Shown piece after piece: positions 12,186 to 18,890 of a DNA stretch of 40,798 nt. Position 1 is the first letter of the stretch. Each line of letters starts with the position of its first letter. Both the position numbers and the translations under genes were made by a program. This DNA comes from Deltaproteobacteria bacterium (lineage in GTDB: Bacteria > Myxococcota_A > UBA796 > SXON01): assembly GCA_947484175.1 (NCBI GenBank), contig CANKOI010000035.1, forward strand, positions 1-40,798, given 5' to 3'. The notes beneath the pieces are model-generated. The model saw only the letters and a list, made by a program, of their open reading frames with translations. It was not told the DNA's origin and did no database searches.

Positions 12186-13516
12186 TCCCCCTGCTCCTCG
12201 CCTGCTCCTCCGGCGACACGGGCTTTCCCACGCCCGAATGGGAAACCGGCGCCGACACCGGCCCCCTGACCCCCCTCGAGGTGAGCATCACCGGCCCTGA
12301 GGTGGCCCTCGACGAATGCGAGAGCGCCTGCTTCAGCGTGGTCACGACCCGCGGCGGGGAACGGGTGAACGATGTGGAGGTGGATGTGTGGGCGGGCGAC
12401 GTAGTGCTCGGTGCCGATCTGATCACCCGGCAGCACGGCGAGGCGGGCAGCTGCGCCGACGGGCTCCCGGTGGGCACCCACACCCTCACGGCCATCGCCA
12501 CCCTCGGCACCGAGCGTGCGACCGCCACCACCACCGCCACCGTGAAGCCCTTTGGCTACGCCGACGGCTTTGTGCGCAGCGAAGCCGTCGTCGACGAGGT
12601 GCCGTGGGCCCCGGAGTTCGTGCGCGACCCCGCGAACCCCGTGCTCCCCGCCGGCGCGGCCGACTCCTGGGACTCCATCGGCACCATCGTGCCCAGCGTG
12701 GCCGCCACCCCCGAGGGCTACGTGATGTGGTACGCCGGCACCGCCGAGGTCGACTACATCCTCGGCGTGGCCACCTCGCCCGACGGTGTGGTGTGGACCA
12801 AGGACAGCGACAATCCGCTGCTCGTGCCCAGCGAGGTGGAAGGCGACTGGCGCCGGTACAGCACGAACTCCCCGATGGTGCTGGCCTACGAGGGGGAGTG
12901 GTACGTGTACTACACCGGCCGCAAGGAGGAGACGTCCGACCTCACCATCGGCCTCGCGAAGGGCGCCGATCCCACCGAAGTCACCGACATCGCCGAGAAC
13001 CCGGTGTTCTCGTGGAACGAAGAGGAGGAGGAGTGGGCAGGCGTGGCGGCGGCTCACCCGAACGTGCTGGTGAACGACGAGGGCTGGTGGGAGATGTGGT
13101 ACTCCACGGGCTACCACAAGGTTGGCTACGCCTACAGCGCCGACGGCCTCTCGTGGACTCGGTACTGCCACAACCCGGTGCTGGTGGGCGACCCCGACCT
13201 CGCCTACGAGGCCCACGCCATCAAGGCCACCGAGGTGGTGCAGCTGGGGGACTGGTATGTCACGACCTACACCGCCGGCGCCACCGGGGCGTTCACTGTG
13301 GGGTGGGCGATGAGCCGCGACGGGCTCCATTGGGCGCACGGGGAGGCGCCCCTGCTCTCGCCTCCGGAAGCAGCGGGCACTTGGGAGAGCAACTCCGTAC
13401 TCTCGGCGCCGATCCTCGTGGTCGAAGACGAGCTGTGGATGTGGTACTCCGGCACCGGTCCCACGGGCTCTGCCGTGGGCCTCGCGCGCGCCAGCCTCGA
13501 CGGGTTCCCCGAATGA
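12182..13516 (+). CDS. lipoprotein with five-bladed beta-propeller glycosidase-like domain
   Basis: This 444-residue protein starts MIPLLLACSSGDTG, a minimal lipobox with Cys at residue 8. A small beta-sandwich (~30-120) precedes a propeller of repeated blades. Each blade has a pattern such as YVMWYAGTAEVDYILGVATS, WYVYYTGRKEETSDLTIGLA, WWEMWYSTGYHKVGYAYS and LWMWYSGTG, typical of the GH43/GH32/GH130 clan of sugar-cleaving or phosphorylase propellers (arabinanase/sucrase fold). Catalytic acids cannot be assigned with confidence by eye. Start ATG overlaps the stop of the PHP protein, and its own stop overlaps the next start, so the three gene products are probably made together and act on one surface or extracellular glycan (inference). 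Confidence 0.82.
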   Translation: MIPLLLACSSGDTGFPTPEWETGADTGPLTPLEVSITGPEVALDECESACFSVVTTRGGERVNDVEVDVWAGDVVLGADLITRQHGEAGSCADGLPVGTHTLTAIATLGTERATATTTATVKPFGYADGFVRSEAVVDEVPWAPEFVRDPANPVLPAGAADSWDSIGTIVPSVAATPEGYVMWYAGTAEVDYILGVATSPDGVVWTKDSDNPLLVPSEVEGDWRRYSTNSPMVLAYEGEWYVYYTGRKEETSDLTIGLAKGADPTEVTDIAENPVFSWNEEEEEWAGVAAAHPNVLVNDEGWWEMWYSTGYHKVGYAYSADGLSWTRYCHNPVLVGDPDLAYEAHAIKATEVVQLGDWYVTTYTAGATGAFTVGWAMSRDGLHWAHGEAPLLSPPEAAGTWESNSVLSAPILVVEDELWMWYSGTGPTGSAVGLARASLDGFPE

Positions 13517-15750
13517 TGGTGCTGCTGCTCGCCTGCCGGTTTGGGGAGCCCGACCCGGTGGACACCGCCGACACCGAGCCGTCCACGACGCCCGCTGAGG
13601 AGGTCAGCTACCTGATCGAGGCCGTGGCCTCGGGCACCCTGCCCGACCAGCAGGGCGTGCAGGTGGCGTTCACCAACCCGCTCCATGGCGTGACCTACGC
13701 GCTCGACGACGCCGGGCTGATGTTCCGCTACCTCCTCGACACCTGGGTACACCCCACCGGCGATTATTGTGCCGGCGGCACCGTGGATGAGAACGGAATC
13801 TGCCGTGGCGGTGTGGTGTGGACGAGCGGGCGGATCGAATCGCCGGCCCCCTCGCTCAACCACTGCCTCGACCGGGAGAACGGCGTTCTCTACCTCCTGA
13901 AATCGGGCGGCGACGCCATCGAGGTCGTGGACGTTTCGATGGAGGGCGGCGACCCCTACACCTACCAACGGGCCGTCCGCAACGCGCGGCTGCCCAAGGA
14001 GGTGTCCGACGCCGTGAACTGGACCGGCCCCTGCGAGGTGGACAACGGGGACAACTCCATCCTCCTCACTTCCACGCCTCAGAAGGCGCTCCTGCGGCTC
14101 TCCAACGGGGAGTCCTTCACGGTCGTGAAGACGGTGGCCCTAGGCTTTGCGTCCGGCGCGGTCGTGCGCCAAGGGGAGCGGATTCTGTTGTGGGACCAGA
14201 CGGCCCACCGGCTCGTCGCCCTCGACAACGGCACCTACCGGCCGCTGAGCGCCTGGGTGGCCTCCGCCCCCATCGTGGACGCCGCGTTTGCGCGCTCGAC
14301 CGGCGCCGGCTGGGCTGCCCTCGGCGAAGACGGCGTGGCCAGCGTGGAGCTCCACGACGACGGCACCTCCGAGGTGTGGGTCGCGCAGGTGGAGGGGAGC
14401 GCGGGGCAAGTCGTCGCCGACCCGTGGCGCGGCGTGGCATGGGCGGCGGTGCAGGGGGAGACCGGTGACAGCGTGGTGCTCGTGCAGCCCGGCGAGGTGC
14501 GCGCCACCTGGCCGATCGCGGGCACGGTGCTCCAGCTCTCGGAGCCCTCCGCAACCGGCGATGTCGCCGTGTTCTACACCCCCGAGGGCAGCACGGAGGT
14601 GGCCTACACCGTGCTCGCGCCCGTCGAAGACGTGCAGGCCGAGGAGCCCCTCAACATCTTCTTGTTCACCACGATCGAGGAGCCCTCCGACGTGAACATG
14701 GCCCTCCCCTGCGAGGGGGCCGGCACCACGTTCGCCACGGAGCTGGCGATGGTTCGGAACAACTCGGCGGTCCTCGCCAAGCTCGGAGTGCCGATCGCGA
14801 TGGCGATCACCGACAACTTCGCCCAGAAGGCGGAGGAGTGCGGGGAGACGGGCATCTACCAAGAGCTCGCCGATCTGGGCTTCGAGCTGGGGGCCATGCT
14901 CCACAACCGCCCCTGCTACAACTGCTCCAGCGGCGGCGACGCCAACCCCGATCACTGCGACGCCGACAACGCCTTGTACATCGCCTCGACCAGCGGCGCG
15001 GCCTGCTTCCCCGACGACCCCGAGTACTGCGGCCTCGGCGACTACGACTGCTACCTCGAGTTCCTCGCCCCCCGCGTAGACATCGCCGACCGCTACATCC
15101 CCGGCGGCGCCCGCTTCATCGTCGGGGCCGACCGCCACGGCATGTGGAGCTACGACTGGATTCGGCTCTATCGGGAGGTGGAGCGCCCTTCGCAGGGCAA
15201 GGTGGGCTTCGATCTCACCCTGTTCGCCGGGGCGTGGGCCTTCAACGACGTGGCCTACGACGACCCTCGCGGCAAAAACCCCGCTCCTTGGCACGTGGAC
15301 CGGCGCACCCCCGCCTGGCATCTCTCCGACATCAACGCCTGGGACCAAGACAGCCCCACCTCGAATCTGCTCTACCTTTCGGGTGCGAACAGCGCGACGG
15401 TGAAGCTCGCGGAGCAGCAGGCGAGCGGCCTCTACATGCTCGACTTCTTCGAGGTGGCCACGCAGCAGTCGTACCGCCCCGACGACTTCGAGATGCAGTT
15501 CCAATGGCTGCGTAGCGCCGTGCAGAACCGCAAGCCCGGCGCCACCAACACCTGGTACTTCCACATCCACGACACCGGCACGGTGAACCTCCGGGGCGCC
15601 GAGGATGTGCCGATTCTCATCGACAAGGACGACCCCGACCAACTCACGATCGAGCAAGCGCTCGCCGACTTCATCACCCGCATCCACGACCGCTACGACG
15701 GCACGGGGGCGTTGGAGTGGAAGCTTCCGAGCGAGATTCGGGGGGATTGA
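13513..15750 (+). CDS. lipoprotein with beta-propeller N-half and possible deacetylase-like C-half
   Basis: A 745-residue protein starting MMVLLLACRFGEPDPVDTAD, with lipidated Cys at residue 8 and a DTADTEPSTTPAEE linker. Residues ~35-385 have WD/NHL-like strand repeats (GVLYLLKSGGDAIEVVDVSM, LLWDQTAHRLVALDNGTY, GVAWAAVQGETGDSVVLVQP), suggesting a propeller. Residues ~390-745 change character: NIFLFTTIEEPSD opens what could be a (beta/alpha) hydrolase fold, then LADLGFELGAMLHNRPCYNC, a Cys-rich insertion, FIVGADRHGMWSYDW and WYFHIHDTG. The layout recalls polysaccharide deacetylase-type proteins, but I cannot place the catalytic triad, so this is only a suggestion. Third gene of the operon, with a 4-bp overlap with the preceding gene. 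Confidence 0.78.
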   Translation: MMVLLLACRFGEPDPVDTADTEPSTTPAEEVSYLIEAVASGTLPDQQGVQVAFTNPLHGVTYALDDAGLMFRYLLDTWVHPTGDYCAGGTVDENGICRGGVVWTSGRIESPAPSLNHCLDRENGVLYLLKSGGDAIEVVDVSMEGGDPYTYQRAVRNARLPKEVSDAVNWTGPCEVDNGDNSILLTSTPQKALLRLSNGESFTVVKTVALGFASGAVVRQGERILLWDQTAHRLVALDNGTYRPLSAWVASAPIVDAAFARSTGAGWAALGEDGVASVELHDDGTSEVWVAQVEGSAGQVVADPWRGVAWAAVQGETGDSVVLVQPGEVRATWPIAGTVLQLSEPSATGDVAVFYTPEGSTEVAYTVLAPVEDVQAEEPLNIFLFTTIEEPSDVNMALPCEGAGTTFATELAMVRNNSAVLAKLGVPIAMAITDNFAQKAEECGETGIYQELADLGFELGAMLHNRPCYNCSSGGDANPDHCDADNALYIASTSGAACFPDDPEYCGLGDYDCYLEFLAPRVDIADRYIPGGARFIVGADRHGMWSYDWIRLYREVERPSQGKVGFDLTLFAGAWAFNDVAYDDPRGKNPAPWHVDRRTPAWHLSDINAWDQDSPTSNLLYLSGANSATVKLAEQQASGLYMLDFFEVATQQSYRPDDFEMQFQWLRSAVQNRKPGATNTWYFHIHDTGTVNLRGAEDVPILIDKDDPDQLTIEQALADFITRIHDRYDGTGALEWKLPSEIRGD

Positions 15751-15772
15751 CGCCAGAGCGAACCGTGGGTAC

Positions 15773-15786
15773 GTATGCAGTATGCA
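15773..15786 (+). promoter_or_regulatory. tandem GTATGCA repeat at the antitoxin start
   Basis: Two perfect abutting copies of GTATGCA occupy 15773-15779 and 15780-15786; the second contains the ATG of the antitoxin gene. Ribbon-helix-helix antitoxins commonly autoregulate by binding short repeated sites at their own promoter, so this may be an operator. The assignment is an inference from position and repeat structure. Confidence 0.3.
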
Positions 15787-16021
15787 CCGCATCACGATCT
15801 CCCTTCCCGAAGAGCTTGCGGCCGTCGTCTCCGACCAGGCCGATCGCGAGGGTACGTCCGTGTCCGAGGTCGTCCGCCGCGCGGTCGTGTTGGCGTTCGG
15901 CGCGGGCGATCGGTCGCCGGCACTTCCGTTCGCCGGCCTCGGCCGAAGCGGTCAGCGCACAACGGCCCGGGATGCCGAGTCCATCCTGGCCAAGGAATGG
16001 GCCGTTGATCGCCATCGTTGA
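15782..16021 (+). CDS. ribbon-helix-helix antitoxin (VapB/CopG-like)
   Basis: A 79-residue protein whose first 45 residues, MHRITISLPEELAAVVSDQA then DREGTSVSEVVRRAV, match the ribbon-helix-helix DNA-binding fold: a short beta strand with alternating residues, a helix, a turn and a second helix with SEVVRRA. The C-terminal half (~45-79) is less ordered in appearance and would be the toxin-neutralising tail. The next gene encodes a PIN-domain protein whose start lies inside this gene, the classic antitoxin-toxin arrangement. I chose the ATG at 15782 because it begins exactly at the fold. Confidence 0.85.
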   Translation: MHRITISLPEELAAVVSDQADREGTSVSEVVRRAVVLAFGAGDRSPALPFAGLGRSGQRTTARDAESILAKEWAVDRHR

Positions 16022-16415
16022 CACGGGGCCACTCTACGCCGCGGTGGACGCCGATGACATGGATCACGCACGCTGCATCGCGGCGATGAGCCGCCCAGGC
16101 CTGCGCCTCGTGATCCCCGCCATGGTGGTGGCGGAGGCCACCTACCTGATTGGAGCCCGCATGGGCCCGAAAACCGAGGCCGCCTTTCTCCGAAGCCTAC
16201 GCGGCCTCCGGATCGAGGTGCCCCGGCCCGAGGACCTCGACCGGATGGGCGAGCTCGTGGTGCAGTATGCGGACTTCCCCCTCGGCGGCACCGATGCTGC
16301 GGTGGTCGCGCTCGCCGAACGCTTAGGTACGGACCTCGTCCTCAGCCTCGACCGCCGCCACATGCTCGCCGTGCGCATGAAATCCGGCGGCTCCCTCCGG
16401 GTGCAGCCCGAGTAG
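16005..16415 (+). CDS. vapC: PIN-domain ribonuclease toxin (VapC-like)
   Basis: A 136-residue PIN-domain protein, probably an RNA-cleaving toxin. The four acidic positions expected in the active site are visible: Asp in LIAIVDTGPLYA, Glu in VVAEATYLIG, Asp in GGTDAAVVALAERL and Asp in LSLDRRHM. Length matches VapC proteins. An in-frame ATG at 15972 would add 11 residues (MPSPSWPRNGP) not typical of the family, whereas TTG 16005 begins at the first beta strand and is preceded by AAGGA at a spacing of about eight bases, so TTG is preferred. It overlaps the antitoxin gene by 17 bp, consistent with translational coupling. Confidence 0.87.
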   Translation: MIAIVDTGPLYAAVDADDMDHARCIAAMSRPGLRLVIPAMVVAEATYLIGARMGPKTEAAFLRSLRGLRIEVPRPEDLDRMGELVVQYADFPLGGTDAAVVALAERLGTDLVLSLDRRHMLAVRMKSGGSLRVQPE

Positions 16416-16584
16416 GCGCGAGGGCATGGACGAGGTGCTCGCCGCCGAGGCGGCGCAGCGCGAAACGGGCGGCTGAGCGCCTCGCCGCACTCGAAGATCC
16501 CGGCCCCCGGCCCGCCCCAACCGCGCCTGAATAATTTGCGCCGTCTCGGGGGGCTCGCTGAGGCTGGCGGGCGAAAGGCGGTCC

Positions 16585-17538
16585 TCACAGGGCCTGCCGC
16601 GCCGCCCAGCCGTTGCGCGCCCCCCACGCCTCCGGCACGCTGCTGGTCCGTTGGGCGCTCGCGCGAAGCACGTCTGCGGGCGTGCTCGTTCCCAGATGCT
16701 CCGCCTTTCTGGCAAGGATCGCCACGATCGTTTCGATATCGGGGGCGCACACTTCGGCGATCGCGACCTGCCGAAATCGGGAGCGAAGGCGCAACGCGAG
16801 GGTGCCAATCTCCTTGGGCGGACGGTCGGCGCAAAGAATGATCTGCGTCCCCGACCGCACCATCCCCTCGAACAAGGGGCACACGATCTCTTGCGTGCGG
16901 TCGCCCCGAGCGATGAACTGCATGTTGTCGAGCAGCAGTACGTCGATTTCGCTGCTGAACCGCTTGCAGAAGTCGAAGATGTTGCGCTCCTGAAAGGCCT
17001 CTACCATCGCGTCGAAGAACTGCTGGGCCGGCCAGTACTCCACCGCTCCCCCGCGGTGCTGCTCCAAGCGGTTGCCGATCGCGTGCATCAGGTGGGTCTT
17101 CCCGTGCCCGTTGCCGCCGTGCAGGAACAGAGGATTGTAGGCAACGCCCGGGGCATCGGCCACGGCGCTTGCCAAGCCGTGAGCGAGCTCGTTGCCCGTG
17201 CCCACCACGAAGTTCTCGAAGGTGAACTCCCGGCGTAGTCCACTCGCGCCTCGCCCGGCTCTTGGTGGAGGGTGCACGGCCCCGTGCTCGGGCAGTTCGC
17301 CATCGAAGGAGAGACGTACTTCCACCGGCCCCCCCTGCACTTCCTCCCAGGCGATGCGGATGTCGCGTAGAAAGGCTTGGTGCACCCACTCGCTGGTGAT
17401 GCGGTTTTCGGCGCACAGCCGCACCCGCCCCGGCTCGACGCTCCCTAACTTTACGGCGCGGGTGAACCAGATGGCCACGTTCTCGTGGCCGATGCGCCGC
17501 TCCAGCGCAACGCAAAAAGCCGCCCACACCGACTCCAT
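16585..17538 (-). CDS. DnaA paralogue lacking the DNA-binding domain IV
   Basis: This 317-residue protein matches the replication initiator DnaA from the N-terminus through the AAA+ domain and then stops. Residues 1-75 resemble domain I (VWAAFCVALERRIGHENVAIW...VHQAFLRD). FTFENFVVGTGNELAH opens domain III. Walker A is GGNGHGKTHLMHAIGN. Walker B is VLLLDNMQFIARGDRTQE, with Asn where DnaA usually has the second Asp. The Arg finger region RLRSRF is present. The lid segment ends SSVPEAWGARNGWAARQAL, where the usual sensor-2 Arg (RELEGA) is Pro, and the stop follows directly, so the helix-turn-helix domain IV is absent. GAGGGGAAG precedes the ATG. A DnaA-box-like CTATCCACG (7 of 9 to TTATCCACA) lies at 17560-17568. 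It may be a regulator or a decaying copy. Confidence 0.86.
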   Translation of the reverse strand: MESVWAAFCVALERRIGHENVAIWFTRAVKLGSVEPGRVRLCAENRITSEWVHQAFLRDIRIAWEEVQGGPVEVRLSFDGELPEHGAVHPPPRAGRGASGLRREFTFENFVVGTGNELAHGLASAVADAPGVAYNPLFLHGGNGHGKTHLMHAIGNRLEQHRGGAVEYWPAQQFFDAMVEAFQERNIFDFCKRFSSEIDVLLLDNMQFIARGDRTQEIVCPLFEGMVRSGTQIILCADRPPKEIGTLALRLRSRFRQVAIAEVCAPDIETIVAILARKAEHLGTSTPADVLRASAQRTSSVPEAWGARNGWAARQAL

Positions 17539-17606
17539 GCGCTCTTCCCCTCACGATCTCTATCCACGCCAGCCGGCGCTACGCCCCATGATATGCGCGC
17601 CTCCTC

Positions 17607-18890
17607 GTGTTCTCGCTCCTCCCCCTTTTCGCCGCCATCGCCCTCGCGGCCGACACCGTGTACGAGTACCGCGGCCCCGGCGGCGCTGGGCAGTACAGCG
17701 CGGTCGAGATCGGCGCCTTCCTCCGGGCCGACGCCGCCGCCCTCCACGAAGTACGTCTCGACGGCTTCGACGACTGGCAAGACGCCACCCGCGTGCCCGA
17801 GATCGCGGGTGCCTGGTTGCGTGGGGATGGGGCGGCGCCGGTTCAGCAGACAGCGGTCCAAGAAGCAGCGCCCCCCGAGCGGCCGGCCGCGGGGCCGCGC
17901 ACCGAAGCCGTCGAGGCGCCCGCGGCGCCCGCCGCGCCGGAGGCGCTCGAAGCGCCCGCGCTCCGCGGCGCGGGCGAACTCTGGCTCAACGTGCAGCTGC
18001 CCACCGACGGCGAGGGCGCTTCTGCCGCCGTTCGGAAGGCCGCGGTCGGCTTCGCCCTCGACCGCGGCGCGTTCACCGCGAAGCTCCTCGTGGCGGGCGA
18101 GCGGCCCGGCACCGTGCGGCTCGACGACGCCTGGGTGGGCGTGGCCACCGACGGCCCCGTGAAGGGCTGGGCCCGCCTCGGTGTGGCGCGCCCTGGGTTC
18201 GGGGTGGCCGACCGTTTCGAAGAGGAGCGCCAGTTCTGGGTGGCGGGGCGCAGCGCGGAGCTGGAGCGCCGGTCGGGCTGGCTGCCGCAGTCGAGCGCCG
18301 CTCTTGCAGCGGGCGCCACCGGCGCCCGCTGGTCGGCTTCCGCCGAGCTCGCCGATGCCGGCGCTGCCGCGCCGGCGCCGACCTTCGCCGCGCTGGAAGC
18401 TCGCGGGCGCGGAGTTGCCTCCTTCGGCGGCACCCCGGAGGCGCCTCGGCTCCGCCTCGGCGCCTCTGCTGCCTACCGCGCCCCGCTCGCAGACGACGCC
18501 AGCTCGCGCCTGCTCGGCGGCGTGCACGCCGAACTCTCGGCAGGGGCGGTGCACCTGTTCGGCGAGGGGATTGTGGGCACGGAGGCAGAGGGCACGCCGC
18601 TTGCGGGCGGGCTGGGCGCGATGGCGGTCACGGTGCCCCTCGTTTCGCCGGCGCTTCGCAGCTTCGTTCTGGTGCTGGCGGGTGGCGGGTGGGACCCCGC
18701 GATCACCGGCCTCGCCGACGAGGAAGACGCGCCGGACGCGAAGTACGAAGCCCGCGCCGGCGCCAACCTCCTCTGGAACACGCCGGACTCCAGCCTGCTT
18801 ACGGGCGTGGGCTATCTGCTCGACGTGCCGCAGAGCTTGGCGCTCGCGGTCACCCAGACCGTCGTGGTCGAGGCGGCTTGGCGCTACTGA
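17607..18890 (+). CDS. envelope barrel-like protein with GYF_2-like N-terminal domain
   Basis: The GTG at 17607 gives 427 residues with a short signal (MFSLLPLFAAIALAAD). Residues ~17-72 (VYEYRGPGGAGQYSAVEIGA then FLRADAA..DGFDDWQDATRVPEI) resemble the GYF_2 fold, with a Gly-Pro-Gly opening and the D-W-x-x-A-x-x-V-P ending. An Ala/Pro/Glu-rich linker (~75-125) follows. The rest is made of alternating hydrophobic strands (VGFALDRGAFTAKLLVAGE, ARLGVARPGFGVADRF, GARWSASAELADAG, RLRLGASAAYRAPL) ending in ...VVVEAAWRY with a terminal aromatic residue, as expected for an outer-membrane beta-barrel. The specific porin family is not recognised. It is divergent from the DnaA-like gene and its stop overlaps the next gene. 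Confidence 0.75.
   Translation: MFSLLPLFAAIALAADTVYEYRGPGGAGQYSAVEIGAFLRADAAALHEVRLDGFDDWQDATRVPEIAGAWLRGDGAAPVQQTAVQEAAPPERPAAGPRTEAVEAPAAPAAPEALEAPALRGAGELWLNVQLPTDGEGASAAVRKAAVGFALDRGAFTAKLLVAGERPGTVRLDDAWVGVATDGPVKGWARLGVARPGFGVADRFEEERQFWVAGRSAELERRSGWLPQSSAALAAGATGARWSASAELADAGAAAPAPTFAALEARGRGVASFGGTPEAPRLRLGASAAYRAPLADDASSRLLGGVHAELSAGAVHLFGEGIVGTEAEGTPLAGGLGAMAVTVPLVSPALRSFVLVLAGGGWDPAITGLADEEDAPDAKYEARAGANLLWNTPDSSLLTGVGYLLDVPQSLALAVTQTVVVEAAWRY

Follow-up and report, generated by a model that had tools for sequence, protein, structure and literature searches.

The window, that is, the whole stretch of 40,798 nucleotides analysed, shows a short dnaA-like gene next to a vapBC-like gene pair, both located in an approximate lineage-specific insert between two chromosomal genes, g13513 and g17607. 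The features of this region, including the domains and motifs encoded by the short dnaA, are the following:

15760-17585, no strand assigned: approximate lineage-specific insert between g13513 and g17607, containing vapBC and the short dnaA
15782-16021, forward strand: gene encoding a VapB-like antitoxin (RHH_1, PF01402)
16005-16415, forward strand: gene encoding a VapC-like PIN toxin (PF01850), with a probable TTG start
16585-17538, reverse strand: short dnaA paralogue with an ATG start, encoding 317 amino acids (stop codon 16585-16587, coding part 16588-17538)
17299-17538, reverse strand: DnaA domain I, residues 1-80, with W5, W24 and N45 retained (Pfam DnaA_N, modelled fold, dN/dS 0.22)
17245-17298, reverse strand: linker or domain II, residues 81-98, predicted to be disordered (pLDDT < 50)
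16588-17244, reverse strand: AAA+ domain III, residues 99-317, with the final lid helix at 301-316 (Pfam Bac_DnaA, model and Foldseek)
17092-17118, reverse strand: Walker A motif GGNGHGKTH, residues 141-149, intact (alignment)
16915-16938, reverse strand: Walker B motif LLLDNMQF, residues 201-208, with the second acid changed from D to N in a column that is invariant in the other DnaA proteins compared (alignment)
16777-16779, reverse strand: arginine finger R254, equivalent to E. coli R285, retained (alignment)
16633-16635, reverse strand: sensor-2 position P302, equivalent to E. coli R334, arginine lost (alignment)
16588-16647, reverse strand: C-terminal 20 residues (298-317, the sensor-2 helix), without detectable constraint
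17607-18890, forward strand: flanking gene g17607, whose order with thiG is conserved across the genus

The gene encoding the RHH antitoxin overlaps the gene encoding the PIN-domain protein (PF01402 and PF01850, respectively), an arrangement characteristic of VapBC pairs. As the initial annotation described, this pair lies 170 bp from the 3' end of the short dnaA: vapC ends at 16415 and the genes are convergent. In three other genomes (G003, G006 and G009), the matches of window positions 13513-15747 and 17607-18887 are adjacent, with a gap of roughly 60-120 bp, and in G004 the gap between the homologues of g13513 and g17607 is filled by a different gene, so that this site seems to accept insertions. 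The G004 gene, at L064:8991-9829, encodes a putative lipoprotein. The VapC protein shows 80-83% amino acid identity to copies in G007, G006 and G012, and the cassette (window 15760-16415) shows 72-78% DNA identity to the cassettes found at other sites in these genomes. Since the VapC identity is higher than is usual for flanking genes at that distance, the vapBC pair is probably mobile. Its homology to other vapBC loci stops at or before the vapC stop codon, so the 170-bp spacer is not part of the vapBC module. Truncation of the gene by an insertion event, proposed earlier as the alternative origin of the short form, is neither shown nor needed with vapBC as the agent: the homology of the module ends at this codon and is followed by the unrelated spacer. 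It is very unlikely that the short DnaA acts with the neighbouring vapBC, or in a mobile cassette, instead of on chromosomal replication: the two share the same insert, but their convergent orientation and the gap between them argue against a partnership, as do the three genomes with homologous cassettes, which match only up to the vapC stop and have no short dnaA.

Two Pfam domains were found above their cut-offs in the short protein: DnaA_N (PF11638) at residues 2-65 (E 3.7e-8) and Bac_DnaA (PF00308) at residues 101-257 (E 1e-46). Bac_DnaA_C (PF08299) has no match in it, and the only occurrence of this domain in the genome belongs to the full-length dnaA. Together with the alignment to E. 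coli K-12 DnaA, these matches confirm a DnaA paralogue that has domains I and III and lacks domain IV. The frame does stop where domain IV should begin, since its last residue corresponds to E. coli residue 349, at the domain III/IV junction. In the AlphaFold2 model, built from a shallow alignment and with a mean pLDDT of 75, domain I is complete, the segment at 81-98 is disordered, and the AAA+ domain is complete with its lid, whose final helix ends one residue short of the C-terminus. The top Foldseek matches of this model are DnaA domain III structures (8bv3, 2z4r and 1l8q), followed by Hda. A promoter scan, which is a weak test, found no sigma-70-like site for the gene.

Residues were assigned in the alignment with E. 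coli K-12 DnaA as reference. The Walker A residues G141, G146, K147, T148 and H149 are retained, as are the first Walker B acid (D204), the H-motif V179, the B-motif R214, the sensor 1 D238, the box VII R250 and, in domain I, the dimer tryptophan W5 together with W24 and N45. Both alterations reported by the initial annotation are present: the second Walker B acid, D236, is N205, and the sensor-2 arginine, R334, is P302. Three further positions are lost: R227 of AID-1 is S195, the equivalent of K243 is G212, and L290 of AID-2 is A259. In E. coli DnaA, R285, R281, R227, K243 and L290 have roles in DnaA-DnaA contacts, and R334 is required for ATP hydrolysis, RIDA and DDAH and is dispensable for initiation complexes (PMC5742627); in mutants of the R334 equivalent, initiation continues and inactivation is escaped (PMC3193534). 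Read residue by residue, the pattern is one of predicted nucleotide binding and an arginine-finger face that are kept, and of hydrolysis, one set of contacts and DNA binding that are lost.

The same assembly contains a separate full-length dnaA, as the initial annotation had suggested checking. It encodes a protein of 453 amino acids with 63% identity to the short form and every motif intact, and it is followed by dnaN and recF (dnaA-dnaN-recF locus). Full-length DnaA is present in 56 of 57 relatives, and none of the 57 has a short form with domain I. The congener G010, whose assembly is 91% complete, shows no detectable dnaA at E 1e-20, probably because of an assembly gap. Conservation of the short form among related genomes, on which its interpretation as a regulator was to be judged, does not hold: it is absent from the 10 other genomes of the genus and from 11 genomes of the family, and is thus lineage-specific. 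A survey of the order found no further short DnaA with domain I, the scan of a contig collection returned only remote alphaproteobacterial DnaA proteins, and in the open-access literature no paper was found that describes a DnaA paralogue consisting of just domains I and III. A phage or plasmid origin was also considered and rejected: the best matches listed have at most 37.5% identity, and those that carry an annotation are ordinary dnaA genes.

In a tree of 31 proteins, the short form is the sister of the DnaA of its own genome (support 98/93) and is nested inside the pair formed by this DnaA and that of G004; forcing the latter two together without the short form is disfavoured (AU p 0.043). 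The protein branch of the short form is 0.75 and that of the own DnaA 0.055, about 14 times shorter, so the placement carries some long-branch risk. Synonymous divergence is 0.59 between the short form and the own dnaA, and 0.83 between the own and the G004 dnaA. The sister placement and these divergences indicate a duplication that postdates the split from the nearest sampled species and is not recent. The short form is known from one genome only, a draft assembly in 167 contigs whose contamination is estimated at 2%, and either the contig or the full-length dnaA could in principle come from another organism through assembly or binning. Such an artefact is very improbable, since synteny with congeners holds in the flanks, the nearest relative of each dnaA copy is the other one, and their GC3 is similar (0.83 and 0.82).

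The DNA similarity to the own dnaA begins at the ATG and ends 8 nt short of the stop codon of the short form, with 74% identity and a net 3-bp deletion. A compensating pair of 1-bp gaps near codon 280 appears in one alignment and not in the other, and is a matter of alignment choice. Upstream of the short form there is no resemblance to the dnaA promoter region (score 20, against 21 for shuffles), whereas the upstream regions of the own and the G004 dnaA are still clearly similar (91 against 21). Downstream, no domain IV remnant was detected, and simulated remnants with 28-42% substitutions nearly always score higher than this region. Because decayed remnants of either kind would nearly always be detectable, the ends are breaks and not the product of decay after a nonsense mutation. 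The short form is therefore a copy that recombination cut at both ends, and does not represent a full-length gene in which an early stop was followed by decay of the rest. Two candidates in the adjacent sequences were rejected: an out-of-frame domain IV remnant downstream (PPETAQIIQARL, resembling PPPTAQVIIERV), whose score is equalled by 30 of 400 shuffles and is at chance for nucleotides, and a DnaA box near the start (CTATCCACG, at 17560), which has two mismatches and is one of 21 such sites in the window, with 22.5 expected. The anatomy of the short dnaA and its origin as a partial copy of the own dnaA are, overall, very probable.

Selection was analysed with a custom implementation of the MG94xHKY codon model on seven sequences. 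The dN/dS of the short-form branch is 0.30 when branch lengths are free and 0.47 when the two sisters follow a clock, against a background of 0.04, and neutrality is rejected in both cases (p 1.2e-5 and 7e-6, respectively). By region, dN/dS is 0.22 in domain I, 0.29 in the linker and core and 0.47 in the lid, all three significantly below 1 and above background; a fit of domain I and II alone hit the branch-length bound and was left out. An initial polarised count (dN/dS 1.06-1.23) was replaced by these maximum likelihood fits, since the outgroup differs at half of the synonymous sites and the count therefore misses synonymous changes. In a test free of synonymous rates, the 251 nucleotide differences were redistributed at random: the short form shows 114 amino acid changes against 159.6 +/- 5.4 under neutrality, changes in seven of 45 invariant DnaA columns against 22.3 +/- 3.2 expected, and no stop codon against four expected (probability of no stop, 0.014). 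Frameshifts are absent. The dN/dS analysis along the gene, put forward earlier as a check, thus shows purifying selection, although the short form is relaxed relative to DnaA. The earlier description of an internally undisrupted gene stands (one 3-bp deletion in 951 bp), with the restriction that roughly the final 20 codons change as though free of constraint: taken by themselves, the last 19-20 codons are compatible with neutrality, at low power, and residues 271-297 are still constrained. The roughly neutral amount of drift in the sensor-2 helix suggests that the short form is old, and the branch, regional and C-terminal tests together suggest that the form under selection was, for much of its history, a short protein without a working sensor 2. 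The product was probably selected as a protein for most of that history. Selection may have stopped recently, or may predate the present form, since the estimate is an average over the whole branch.

The main rival explanation is a decaying duplicate, functional for a time, perhaps as a full-length gene or an early fragment, that then lost its function, was deprived of domain IV by rearrangement and is now a pseudogene with its frame unbroken. This is a serious possibility, at clearly less than even odds. It accommodates the restriction to a single genome, a dN/dS 7-10 times the background, the loss of invariant catalytic residues, the neutral drift of the C-terminal 20 residues and the position beside a mobile-looking vapBC cassette. 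It is harder to reconcile with an intact frame carrying only a 3-bp net indel at 26% nucleotide divergence, with constraint that is graded by site conservation, and with the constrained residues 271-297 followed by a helix whose drift points to an old short form.

The short form shares with DnaA (TIGR00362) domains I and III, Walker A, sensor 1, box VII, the arginine finger and direct descent from the dnaA of the genome; it differs in lacking domain IV, the catalytic Walker B acid, the sensor-2 arginine, AID-1 and AID-2, and scores 239.7 bits, below the cut-off of 343.9. With Hda/HdaA (TIGR03420), the DnaA inactivator of RIDA, it shares a DnaA-derived AAA+ domain without domain IV. In Hda, an arginine finger triggers DnaA-ATP hydrolysis; the putative counterpart in the short protein is R254, which aligns with R285 of DnaA. 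Its score against this family is 66.6 bits, below the cut-off of 194.8, and its origin is separate and lineage-specific. The difference in architecture from Hda noted by the initial annotation is real, since domain I is retained. An N-terminal beta-clamp binding motif of the Hda type (Q-L-x-L) was not found in the short protein, and none of the proteins in 22 genomes of the family exceeds the Hda cut-off. The E. coli R334A and Caulobacter R357A mutants of DnaA share the loss of the sensor-2 arginine, which is expected to block ATP hydrolysis, but they keep domain IV and over-initiate (PMC3193534), whereas the short form should not bind origin DNA.

Two other DnaA-derived proteins were found in the family. 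G017 (C49, L072:4358-5140) encodes a domain-III-only paralogue of 260 amino acids, which also lacks domain IV and has an intact Walker A but, in contrast to the short form, has no domain I, keeps Walker B and the sensor-2 arginine, and has lost the arginine finger; in the tree it forms a separate long branch at another place. Downstream of it there is a gene encoding a response-regulator receiver domain. G019 (C1, L073:1690-6741) encodes a protein of 1684 amino acids that matches the SLOG family and contains a TIR-like region (PADLOC ThsB-like, E 1e-16). Its C-terminal part consists of DnaA domains III and IV, in which Walker A is destroyed (GPDSDTNTH), and the protein has the appearance of a conflict or defence factor that borrowed a DnaA module. 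Neither paralogue is related to the short form, and DnaA pieces have been reused more than once in the family.

For the short DnaA itself, the reading preferred here, with a probability of roughly 0.4, is an ATP-holding, DNA-blind partner that would modulate DnaA in mixed complexes. A partial copy of the lineage's own dnaA, covering the gene from its ATG through domain III, came to lie between two chromosomal genes, together with a vapBC cassette or close to one, once the lineage had separated from the nearest sampled species, and was then kept under relaxed but real purifying selection. We infer that its product binds ATP, from the retained Walker A, first Walker B acid and sensor 1; barely hydrolyses it, from the lost second Walker B acid and sensor 2; cannot bind DnaA boxes, as domain IV is missing; and associates with full-length DnaA. 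Docking would take place through domains I and III, with the intact arginine finger offered to DnaA-bound ATP. The short DnaA would stay ATP-bound, without anchoring to DnaA boxes and without normal filament extension. With AID-1, AID-2 and DNA binding lost, its action would be either to cap or poison productive DnaA assemblies or, like Hda, to promote the hydrolysis of DnaA-ATP in trans. As a net effect, assemblies at oriC would be capped or thinned, or the ATP of the neighbour hydrolysed, and initiation would be damped or timed. Several observations count against a modulator: its presence in a single genome, the roughly 14-fold longer branch, the seven changed residues that are invariant in the DnaA proteins compared, the loss of AID-1 and AID-2 residues that normally mediate DnaA-DnaA contacts, and the lack of a clamp motif and, in a weak scan, of a recognised promoter. 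Modulation of DnaA as its role is tentatively proposed, at a little under even odds. A dedicated modulator built within this lineage by copying dnaA domains I-III and discarding DNA binding and hydrolysis, an ATP-locked, DNA-blind subunit that would attach to DnaA both by domain I and by its arginine-finger face, is rather unlikely.

Should the gene be no more than a slowly decaying pseudogene, it would be a common case of an essential-gene duplicate that was truncated. Outside the groups that bear Hda, little is established about the inactivation of DnaA. If the modulator reading is true, the short DnaA would be an independent solution to the problem that Hda solves, in a genome without a protein over the Hda cut-off, and a traceable duplicate from which precisely these two activities, DNA binding and hydrolysis, were lost would illustrate how regulators of the Hda type can arise.
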